From positions 1 through 64,000 of the forward strand of contig JAFXGO010000019.1 in assembly GCA_017520185.1 (NCBI GenBank): DNA of 64,000 nucleotides, in the 5' to 3' direction. The translations under genes and the position numbers were made by a program. Under the pieces are notes generated by a model. The model worked only from the letters and a program-made list of their open reading frames with translations. It did no database searches and had not been told where the DNA came from. Below are positions 15,828 through 16,928 of this stretch, one piece after another. Each line of letters starts with the position of its first letter. Position 1 is the stretch's first letter. Source of the DNA: Elusimicrobiaceae bacterium (GTDB lineage: Bacteria > Elusimicrobiota > Elusimicrobia > Elusimicrobiales > Elusimicrobiaceae).

Positions 15828-15915
15828 GGGGTATAATCTCCATTACAATAAGGTATATATAATGATACCAATTTTAGGGGAACAGGGGCAAAAAAGAAAA
15901 TCAAAAAATCAAAAT
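15828..15915 (-). promoter_or_regulatory. Probable promoter region of the acyl-CoA dehydrogenase-etf operon
   Basis: On the minus strand a TATAAT-like stretch (CATTATATATACC, about 15850-15866) lies about 30 nt upstream of the ATG and is followed by GGAG. The exact -10 register is uncertain because the A/T run offers several. Confidence 0.45.
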
Positions 15916-16174
15916 TTGTTATACTAAAAATGTAGTTACAATTTATTCTGTTTTTGGAACCGTTTTGGAAACGGACCTTTGCCGTCAGGCAAGAGTATGC
16001 TCTCCGAAAACAGTCGTTTAGGTATAGGATAAACGGACTAATTACCCGTTTGTTTTATGCCAAATGTTTATCGTTTTGGCGATAAACTACGGCTGTTCTT
16101 GGTTGAAGGTGAGCATACTCTCAGGCAAGAAGCAGCCGTTTTTGTTGGGTTTCATAACAGAATGAGGAGCGTTT
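15916..16174 (+). promoter_or_regulatory. Structured leader RNA upstream of the prepilin gene (candidate riboregulator)
   Basis: A -10 lies at 15920-15925 (TATACT) or 15937-15942 (TACAAT). The following leader of about 230 nt can form CCGTTT/AAACGG (15960-15974), TTGCC/GGCAA (15979-15992), AAACGG/CCGTTT (16031-16051) and TTTATC/GATAAA (16067-16086). The last hairpin is long: CGGCTGTTCTTG (16090-16101) with CAAGAA-G-CAGCCG (16126-16138), then TTTTT, like an intrinsic terminator. Its loop holds GAGCATACTCT (16111-16121), an exact complement of AGAGTATGCTC at 15992-16002. TCAGGCAAGA occurs twice (15985-15994 and 16121-16130). The prepilin Shine-Dalgarno (GAGGAG) lies after the hairpin. I do not recognise a known riboswitch class. 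Confidence 0.6.
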
Positions 16175-16687
16175 ATGAAAAACAACAAAAAAGCATTCAC
16201 CCTCATAGAATTATTAGTTGTCGTTTTAATCATCGGCATTCTATCTGCCGTAGCCTTACCACAATATACCTTTGCGGTAGAAAAAGCGCGCTTTGCAGAA
16301 GCAGAACAAACAGTCGGTTCTTTGCAAAAAGCCATAGATATATGGTTGCTGGAAAATGGATATCCTTCACAACAGATTCAATTCCTTGGAAAAAATAGCG
16401 GTTCCGGACAGTTGTTGCTTGACTTTGAGGGAAGCTTAGATTGTTCCGCAGAAGAGAGATGTAAAAGCAAAAACTTTAGTTATGCGGCGTCTTGCTGGCC
16501 ATCAAGGTGTTGGGTTATGGTATTTCGCGAACCCGAAAGTTCCTATGTCATTACTTGGCTCCGTGATTCTCCCGGTTGGCATGGAGACGAATGCGACTAT
16601 TATACAGATGTGTCTCCCATCGGCGAGAAGCTATGTAAAATGCTGGAAAAGCAAGGCAATGGCTTTGTTGCTTGTGAAAATTGTTAA
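16175..16687 (+). CDS. Type IV prepilin-like protein (first copy)
   Basis: 170 residues. It has a short basic leader and the class III signal peptide site, K-AFTLIELLVVVLIIGILSA, with the conserved Glu5 of mature pilins and a long hydrophobic helix, then VALPQYTFAVEKARFAEAEQ. The globular C-terminal part carries several Cys residues (LDCSAEERCKSKN, SCWPSRCWV, CEN C) that may form disulphides. The prepilin peptidase would cut before Phe. It may be a major or minor pilin or pseudopilin. It is monocistronic, behind the structured leader, with its own terminator. The N-terminus is nearly the same as in the prepilin at 38895-39395; pilT is at 46622-47755. Confidence 0.88.
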   Translation: MKNNKKAFTLIELLVVVLIIGILSAVALPQYTFAVEKARFAEAEQTVGSLQKAIDIWLLENGYPSQQIQFLGKNSGSGQLLLDFEGSLDCSAEERCKSKNFSYAASCWPSRCWVMVFREPESSYVITWLRDSPGWHGDECDYYTDVSPIGEKLCKMLEKQGNGFVACENC

Positions 16688-16694
16688 CTTATCT

Positions 16695-16724
16695 TAACCG
16701 CCTGTTTCTACAGACGGTTTTTTT
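16695..16724 (+). terminator. Intrinsic terminator of the first prepilin gene
   Basis: AACCGcCTGT/ACAGaCGGTT stem with one mismatch and a 4-nt loop, followed by a T run, 8 nt after the stop codon. Confidence 0.85.
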
Positions 16725-16782
16725 AAAGCCGTTCGCAACAAATGAAAACCCTATGTTCGCTGCATGATTTTTCAGATTTAAG

Positions 16783-16860
16783 TTTAGTTTGCGTTGCAAG
16801 TTACCCGAGGCAAGTACTGCCAGGTACGGCGAGCGGTAAGGCAACGCAAAATAAACTAAA
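16783..16860. repeat. Imperfect palindrome, candidate dispersed palindromic element
   Basis: TTTAGTTT-GCGTTGC (16783-16797) is mirrored by GCAACGC-aaaat-AAACTAAA (16841-16860), a 15-bp inverted repeat with one 5-nt bulge. The 43-nt centre is itself palindromic (TTACC...GGTAA, TAC...GTA, GCC...GGC). It lies between the prepilin terminator and the cdsA promoter and codes for nothing evident. It has the shape of a REP or miniature inverted-repeat element, but only one copy is in the window. Confidence 0.5.
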
Positions 16861-16916
16861 TATGGAAAATAGTTTGCCCAAACCCAGCCCCGCAAATGAA
16901 AAAGTCGTAAATATGC

Positions 16917-16922
16917 TAAAAT
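16917..16922 (+). promoter_or_regulatory. Extended -10 of a leaderless transcript (cdsA operon)
   Basis: TGCTAAAAT: the TAAAAT hexamer ends exactly 6 nt before the cdsA ATG at 16929, and no Shine-Dalgarno sequence is present. Confidence 0.65.
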
Positions 16923-16928
16923 ACCTAT

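Follow-up and report, generated by a model that had tools for sequence, protein, structure and literature searches.

The window, a stretch of 64,000 nucleotides from the genome of an Elusimicrobiaceae bacterium (contig JAFXGO010000019.1), carries on its forward strand a gene for a type IV prepilin-like protein whose 5' leader contains a conserved structured-RNA unit (Table 1). The leader folds with a computed energy of -96.1 kcal/mol, versus -60.6 kcal/mol for dinucleotide shuffles (z = -7.5). Helix P1, formed by CTGTTTTTGGA and TCCGAAAACAG, surrounds the two variable hairpins P2 and P3 together with the J strand, and P4, P5 and P6 follow downstream; the J strand sits immediately 5' of strand 2, and its partner occupies the center of the P6 loop. 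The initial annotation of this DNA had described a multi-hairpin leader of about 230 nt; the hairpins are indeed there, but the conserved unit is shorter and comprises 196 nt. The annotation had also pointed to a terminator-like hairpin (16090-16138; 12 bp with one bulged G) followed by TTTTT (16139-16143), and to an exact complementarity between AGAGTATGCTC and a segment of the terminator loop. Both are present in the sequence, and the complementarity recurs as a pairing of 9-12 bp in nearly all of 180 relatives. A 10-nt direct repeat, TCAGGCAAGA (15985-15994 and 16121-16130), is present as well, but we rejected it as a functional part; it looks incidental because other copies of the RNA (e.g., L002 and L030) do not retain it. 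The segment complementary to strand 1 that follows the U-run was considered as a core element and kept as a minor one, with 45 of 143 copies at a shuffle P <= 0.05.

Table 1. Features of the leader RNA and its surroundings, in positions of the window.
Feature	Positions	Strand	Remarks
-10-like element TATACT	15920-15925	+	22 nt 5' of P1; kept in relative G040, which has a related pilin without the RNA
Conserved structured-RNA unit	15948-16143	+	196 nt, 5' leader of the prepilin gene
Strand 1, 5' arm of P1, CTGTTTTTGGA	15948-15958	+	partner 16003-16013; P1 cells 98.9% paired
P2 hairpin, CCGTTT...AAACGG	15960-15974	+	fold and aligned copies; sequence variable
P3 hairpin, TTGCC...GGCAA	15979-15992	+	fold and aligned copies; sequence variable, missing from some copies
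J strand, AGAGTATGCTC	15992-16002	+	partner is the terminator loop, 16111-16121; covariation
Strand 2	16003-16016	+	P1 3' arm (16003-16013) and putative antiterminator 5' arm ACAGTCG (16010-16016)
P4 hairpin, 16 bp	16021-16061	+	two-sided changes at 14/16 pairs
P4 apical loop, ACTAATTAC, palindrome TAATTA (2 nt + 6 + 1)	16037-16045	+	proposed homotypic kissing site
AAATG joining segment and P5 hairpin (16066-16087)	16062-16087	+	two-sided changes at 9/10 P5 pairs
Strand 3, TACGGCTGTT, terminator 5' arm and putative antiterminator 3' arm	16088-16097	+	ACGGCTGTT almost invariant
P6, predicted intrinsic-terminator hairpin with U-run	16090-16143	+	upper-stem complementarity z = 11.6 across copies
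P6 loop segment, J-strand partner	16111-16121	+	covariation across copies
Strand 4, terminator 3' arm, partner of strand 3	16132-16138	+	fold
Strand 5, complementary to strand 1, U-run to Shine-Dalgarno	16148-16163	+	minor, subset of copies
Shine-Dalgarno GAGGAG	16164-16169	+	sequence
Type IV prepilin-like protein gene, 170 aa	16175-16687	+	Pfam N_methyl PF07963, E 9.6e-9

A DNA search with the leader recovered a second site in the same genome, also upstream of a pilin gene, and matches in 68 of 199 related genomes. An alignment of 28 copies (A1) served to build a covariance model (R1), which finds three copies in the own genome, two of them upstream of pilins and one upstream of an SNF2-like helicase ORF, and which matches 92 of 341 Elusimicrobiota genomes spread over two separate families, f1 and f21; the hosts include gut and rumen Elusimicrobiota. 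At least 128 matches at E <= 1e-5 are found in the 1.7-Mb roe-deer rumen MAG RGIG5124, whereby the per-genome counts are lower bounds (up to 150 candidates were scored) and the E-values of R1 are rough. An exact pattern scan of 84,980 species genomes returned at least 120 stretches, and all 116 that carried a taxon name among the matches listed belong to the Elusimicrobiota. Phage, plasmid and viral collections yielded no matches to the leader RNA, and such an origin was accordingly rejected. The family has thus been seen so far in Elusimicrobiota alone, with a covariance search within the phylum and the exact pattern scan beyond it. The segment 15948-16143 is a member of this uncatalogued family of structured RNAs, and the observation that had singled it out was real. 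For comparative work we used 180 non-redundant copies and, for validation, 60 further copies fetched later (240 in total); the source sequences are mostly metagenome assemblies, and the copies are mutually related, so that counts and statistics over them overstate independence.

Scanned with Rfam 15 at the gathering score, the whole window produced tRNAs alone, and the leader by itself, at E <= 10, gave chance-level hits to miRNA and CyaR families alone. Since the gathering score of no family was reached, we rejected an assignment of the leader to a known Rfam class, be it c-di-GMP-I/II, guanidine-II, OLE, ROOL or GOLLD. This agrees with the initial annotation, which had seen no consensus of the c-di-GMP riboswitches. 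In the literature on Elusimicrobia, with many subscription journals outside our coverage, we found no published description of the leader RNA.

The helices of A1 are paired in 90.3% of the cells, versus 39-50% when the partners are slid against each other, and 35 of the 54 pairs show two-sided changes, among them all ten pairs of the J:loop helix. For this helix the comparative evidence is particularly strong: cognate J strands and loops pair with a mean of 24.9 hydrogen bonds versus 12.2 for those taken from mismatched copies (z = 63; 180 non-redundant copies), and the 180 copies realize 173 distinct pairings of 9-12 bp at the same place. Among the 60 further copies, 97% exceed the 99th percentile of non-cognate combinations. 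The long-range contact with the terminator loop that had been proposed from a single sequence is consequently real; its letters differ in almost every copy while the pairing is retained. We looked for avoidance of cross-pairing between J strands and the loops of other copies and found none, non-cognate combinations behaving as shuffled ones. At the junction, the third base of the joining segment that follows P4 pairs with Y16088, the base 5' of ACGG, as A-U, G-C or G-U and never as A-C (Fisher P 8e-31 in f1 and 1e-5 in f21).

The near-invariant ACGGCTGTT of strand 3 has two partners, strand 2 (ACAGYCG), which overlaps P1, and strand 4 (AACRGCCG). Folding of transcripts that end just 5' of strand 4 predicts, for 95% of the 180 copies, the 2:3 antiterminator together with a nested J:loop helix and a broken P1, while the finished leader, now with strand 4, is predicted to adopt the 3:4 terminator in 93%. 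When the J:loop pairing is forbidden during folding, 3:4 appears in more than 99% and P1 in about 99% of the 180 copies; when it is added as a pseudoknot, handled as a rough sum of fold energies, the terminated state is the lower one in 98%. The terminator hairpin and its U-run lie between a candidate promoter and a co-oriented gene, the layout expected of an attenuator, and a mutually exclusive antiterminator pairing is conserved across copies. The support for this 2:3 pairing stems from energies and conservation rather than from covariation, since the antiterminator strands are nearly invariant. The folding computations support a conserved two-state attenuator behavior, and the transcription attenuator that had been suspected in front of the prepilin gene is supported, as P6 with its U-run is conserved and the predicted states alternate between nascent and finished transcripts.

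The apical loop of P4 carries a palindrome of 4-8 nt that occurs in 19 kinds and renders the loop self-complementary in 93% of the copies. Its centers read TAATTA, TTATAA, TTCGAA, TCATGA, TTGCAA, TCTAGA, CTCGAG, CTATAG, CTGCAG, GATC, GGCC, GTAC and others, and a geometry of 2 nt + 6 + 1 is the commonest (118 of 240 copies); in 18 of the 240 copies this loop lacks a palindrome of 4 nt or longer. With loops taken from predicted folds, 95% of the 39 distinct P4 loops of at least 6 nt contain a palindrome of at least 4 nt (38% when shuffled) and 72% contain one of at least 6 nt (6% when shuffled). The loops of P2, P3 and P5, which served as negative controls, show no excess (11-12% versus 11-19% when shuffled). 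The rule was found in the first 180 copies and then tested on the 60 copies fetched afterwards, where all eight previously unseen P4 loops of at least 6 nt bear a 6-nt palindrome, against 8% for the shuffle. A partner in cis was considered and rejected, because a second copy of the palindrome does not occur within the leader beyond chance. Self-complementarity that persists despite sequence change most simply implies that two identical loops pair and the RNA forms a homodimer. Docking of two leaders through P4 is thus supported, because a loop that stays self-complementary while its letters change bears the mark of an RNA-RNA contact; we infer it from the loop sequences. The commonest palindromes, UAAUUA and UUAUAA, consist entirely of A and U, and their predicted self-pairing as free duplexes is weak (-0.4 and -0.6 kcal/mol).

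A co-oriented prepilin gene follows the RNA in 116 of the 180 copies (100 in f1 and 16 in f21), in 56 of the 60 further copies, and in 34 of the 35 copies examined in RGIG5124. Its ATG is located a median of 40 nt 3' of the U-run, so that a separate promoter would hardly fit in between. Other downstream genes encode glycosyltransferases (families 2, 8 and 9), a polysaccharide pyruvyl transferase, a TupA-like ATP-grasp protein, an HsdR_N protein, SNF2/PLD helicases, an EcoRI-type methylase and lipoprotein-like ORFs; for the most part, these have to do with the cell surface or with defense. EcoRI-type adenine methylase genes accompany the RNA in both f1 (L018, L025) and f21 (L196/L205) and are 65% identical; the one in f21 has two tandem RNA matches. 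This suggests that methylase and RNA were transferred together between distant families.

The pilin repertoires of these bacteria are very large, with about 60 prepilin motifs in the own genome (1.4 Mb) and at least 150 in RGIG5124. As R1 places the RNA upstream of only two of the about 60 motifs in the own genome, we regard it as an optional module. In relatives, the interval between acd and cdsA in which our locus resides (window 15828-16928; corresponding interval in L285-L297) is either empty or occupied by various pilins, by a lipoprotein-like ORF or by other genes, which makes it a hot spot of insertion. The site measures 127-138 bp without an insert in some relatives, harbors RNA plus pilin in the own clade, and in G040 holds a promoter in common with our locus and a related pilin without the RNA. 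These empty sites and the arrangement in G040 mark the leader as a discrete 5' UTR module.

Across copies, -10-like hexamers are enriched about twofold at -35 to -21, and the number of copies possessing one exceeds that of shuffles modestly; the signal is weak overall and merely suggestive, and a promoter at a fixed distance was therefore rejected. Many other prepilin genes of the own genome, which lack the RNA, are preceded by a promoter-like CTTGACTTG-T(10-12)-GCTACAATTT (upstream regions L255-L284), which we read as a -35 element, a long T tract as spacer, and a -10 element. One further prepilin gene of this genome is preceded, within about 200 nt (L268; G000:C8 near 114874), by a GC-rich and apparently structured leader, GGGGTGCAAAGTCCCGGTATCGGGCAAGGGGC..., that is unlike the family described here and for which Rfam gave no match.

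These data lend themselves to a regulatory model that builds on the family, its helices and their covariation, the palindrome rule, the two-state folding potential and the gene association, all of them computed here. We infer transcription from the upstream promoter, its termination, the dimerization and the direction of control. In the nascent RNA, strand 2 (ACAGTCG) would pair with strand 3 (CGGCTGT, 16090-16096) so as to enclose P4 and P5, the J:loop helix would nest outside this pairing, and transcription would continue into the gene. Alternatively, P1 would form and free strand 3 for strand 4, P6 would then fold, and RNA polymerase would halt at the U-run. The J:loop helix should be compatible with both states and may serve as their pivot, taking the form of a pseudoknot in the terminated one. 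Docking of two leaders via P4, for instance when a leader released after termination meets a nascent one, could bias the switch and would entail feedback specific to a gene or to a class; a small-molecule or protein signal, as surmised in the initial annotation, may act additionally. A cis-acting attenuator leader is the best-supported reading of the data. That the RNA is the 5' leader of a prepilin mRNA and belongs to a new family of cis-acting transcription attenuators whose switch is biased by leader docking through P4 has, in our estimate, a probability of about 0.72. A more far-reaching and decidedly tentative extension is that leaders recognize themselves by gene or palindrome class: terminated leaders would accumulate, dock via P4, perhaps with domain-swapped, copy-specific J:loop helices, and only some pilins would be expressed. 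If true, this would constitute an RNA-only self-recognition system that chooses within a repertoire of more than 100 pilin genes. In three f21 copies (L188, L203 and L204), the stretch between U-run and gene can also fold into a hairpin that hides the Shine-Dalgarno sequence, e.g., CTCCAAAG...CTTTGGAG, and whose 5' arm is complementary to strand 1 as well; this is possibly a second, translational layer of control.

The leader might instead be a conventional riboswitch in which a small molecule bound by the P1-P4 region selects terminator or antiterminator and the palindrome in P4 does no more than create a dimeric aptamer. For pilus genes, the ligand that comes to mind first is a nucleotide second messenger, and P1 acts as an anti-antiterminator in the predicted folds, ahead of genes for pili and surface sugars. 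GGDEF proteins are present in all seven genomes tested, which makes c-di-GMP possible, but they are also present in a relative without the RNA (G066). Known riboswitch models do not match, few unpaired bases are conserved that could form a fixed pocket, and the letters of the P4 loop change; we consider this reading possible but doubtful. Control by an RNA-binding protein, perhaps a dimer, that binds P4 and the conserved P1 and favors one of the two states would account for the sequence conservation of P1 and strand 3 besides their pairing, and for the wide regulon. Such a partner would have no need of a palindromic single-stranded loop unless two RNAs meet, and 19 different palindromes speak against a sequence-specific reading, which renders this explanation unlikely. 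Although a compact unit that ends in a U-run and exists in many copies per genome might be an independent small RNA that acts in trans, has a promoter and a terminator of its own and lies next to its downstream gene by chance, the downstream genes are co-oriented and start about 30-55 nt past the U-run in most copies, their types recur in two distant families, and other pilins of the same genome lack the RNA, so that we deem this quite improbable. The patchy distribution, the insertion hot spot and an incomplete inverted repeat formed by strand 1 and the stretch ahead of the Shine-Dalgarno sequence would fit a mobile or recombination site acting as DNA (attC-like hairpin, MITE or pilin gene-conversion signal), but the orientation relative to the gene is constant wherever it can be judged, the unit ends in a terminator, the sense strand tolerates G-U pairs, the J:loop helix comes in 173 different pairings, and phage, plasmid and viral collections hold no match, which makes such an element very improbable indeed.

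Collectively, the cis-acting attenuator leader represents a large class of regulatory RNA that had not been catalogued before and that comparative evidence supports strongly, and its numbers in a single 1.7-Mb genome are such that we know of no riboswitch class with as many copies per genome. The proposal of the initial annotation that it represents a new class of riboregulators is supported by the absence of an Rfam match, by its distribution in 92 of 341 genomes and by the covariation. A lack of covariation and an Rfam match, two outcomes that the annotation had named as refutations, were both checked for and did not arise. Beyond that proposal, our analysis adds the palindromic P4 loop, an explicit antiterminator strand exchange and a wider set of downstream genes. 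To our knowledge, there is no earlier case of a gene-control leader that keeps a changing palindrome in a loop, a feature that points to control through RNA dimerization, nor do we know of an attenuator built on homodimerization through palindromic loops. The leader RNA also gives a tangible starting point for understanding the management of repertoires of 60 to at least 150 pilin genes in these bacteria.

The c-di-GMP-I and c-di-GMP-II riboswitches are transcription-attenuating elements upstream of pilus genes. The leader resembles them in its position 5' of pilus genes, in the competition between P1 and an antiterminator, and in the intrinsic terminator before the gene, but it differs through another architecture, with a copy-specific helix of 9-12 bp that joins the terminator loop to the P1 domain, a palindromic loop, and no Rfam match. 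At first sight it also seems distinct from integron attC sites, which stand in cassette arrays with an integron integrase nearby, since it lies in front of single genes and has a U-run at its 3' end. RNA dimerization as such has been reviewed (PMC7357161). In the guanidine-II riboswitch, small loops kiss through a self-complementary core (PMC9300104, PMC7544219); they belong to two hairpins of a single RNA with fixed loop letters and a known ligand, whereas the leader has one hairpin with changing palindromes. OLE, ROOL and GOLLD are natural homo-oligomeric bacterial RNAs (PMC12286853); the leader shares with them the assembly with its own copies, which is putative in its case, and ROOL is also of rumen origin, but these RNAs are much larger, while the leader, without Rfam match, precedes a gene and has a terminator at its end. 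A geometrical counterpart of P4 is found in a virus. The loop of the HIV-1 dimerization initiation site (DIS) consists of 2 nt, a 6-nt palindrome and 1 nt. Kissing through palindromic loops has been described (PMC4588261), and P4 shares with the DIS loop both the 2 + 6 + 1 apical loop and a self-complementarity kept through sequence change. The two RNAs are unrelated by descent, dimerization of the leader is putative, and in contrast to the DIS, the leader is a putative bacterial attenuator that displays 19 palindromes in one family, mostly A-U rich, and accommodates them in loops of other sizes too.
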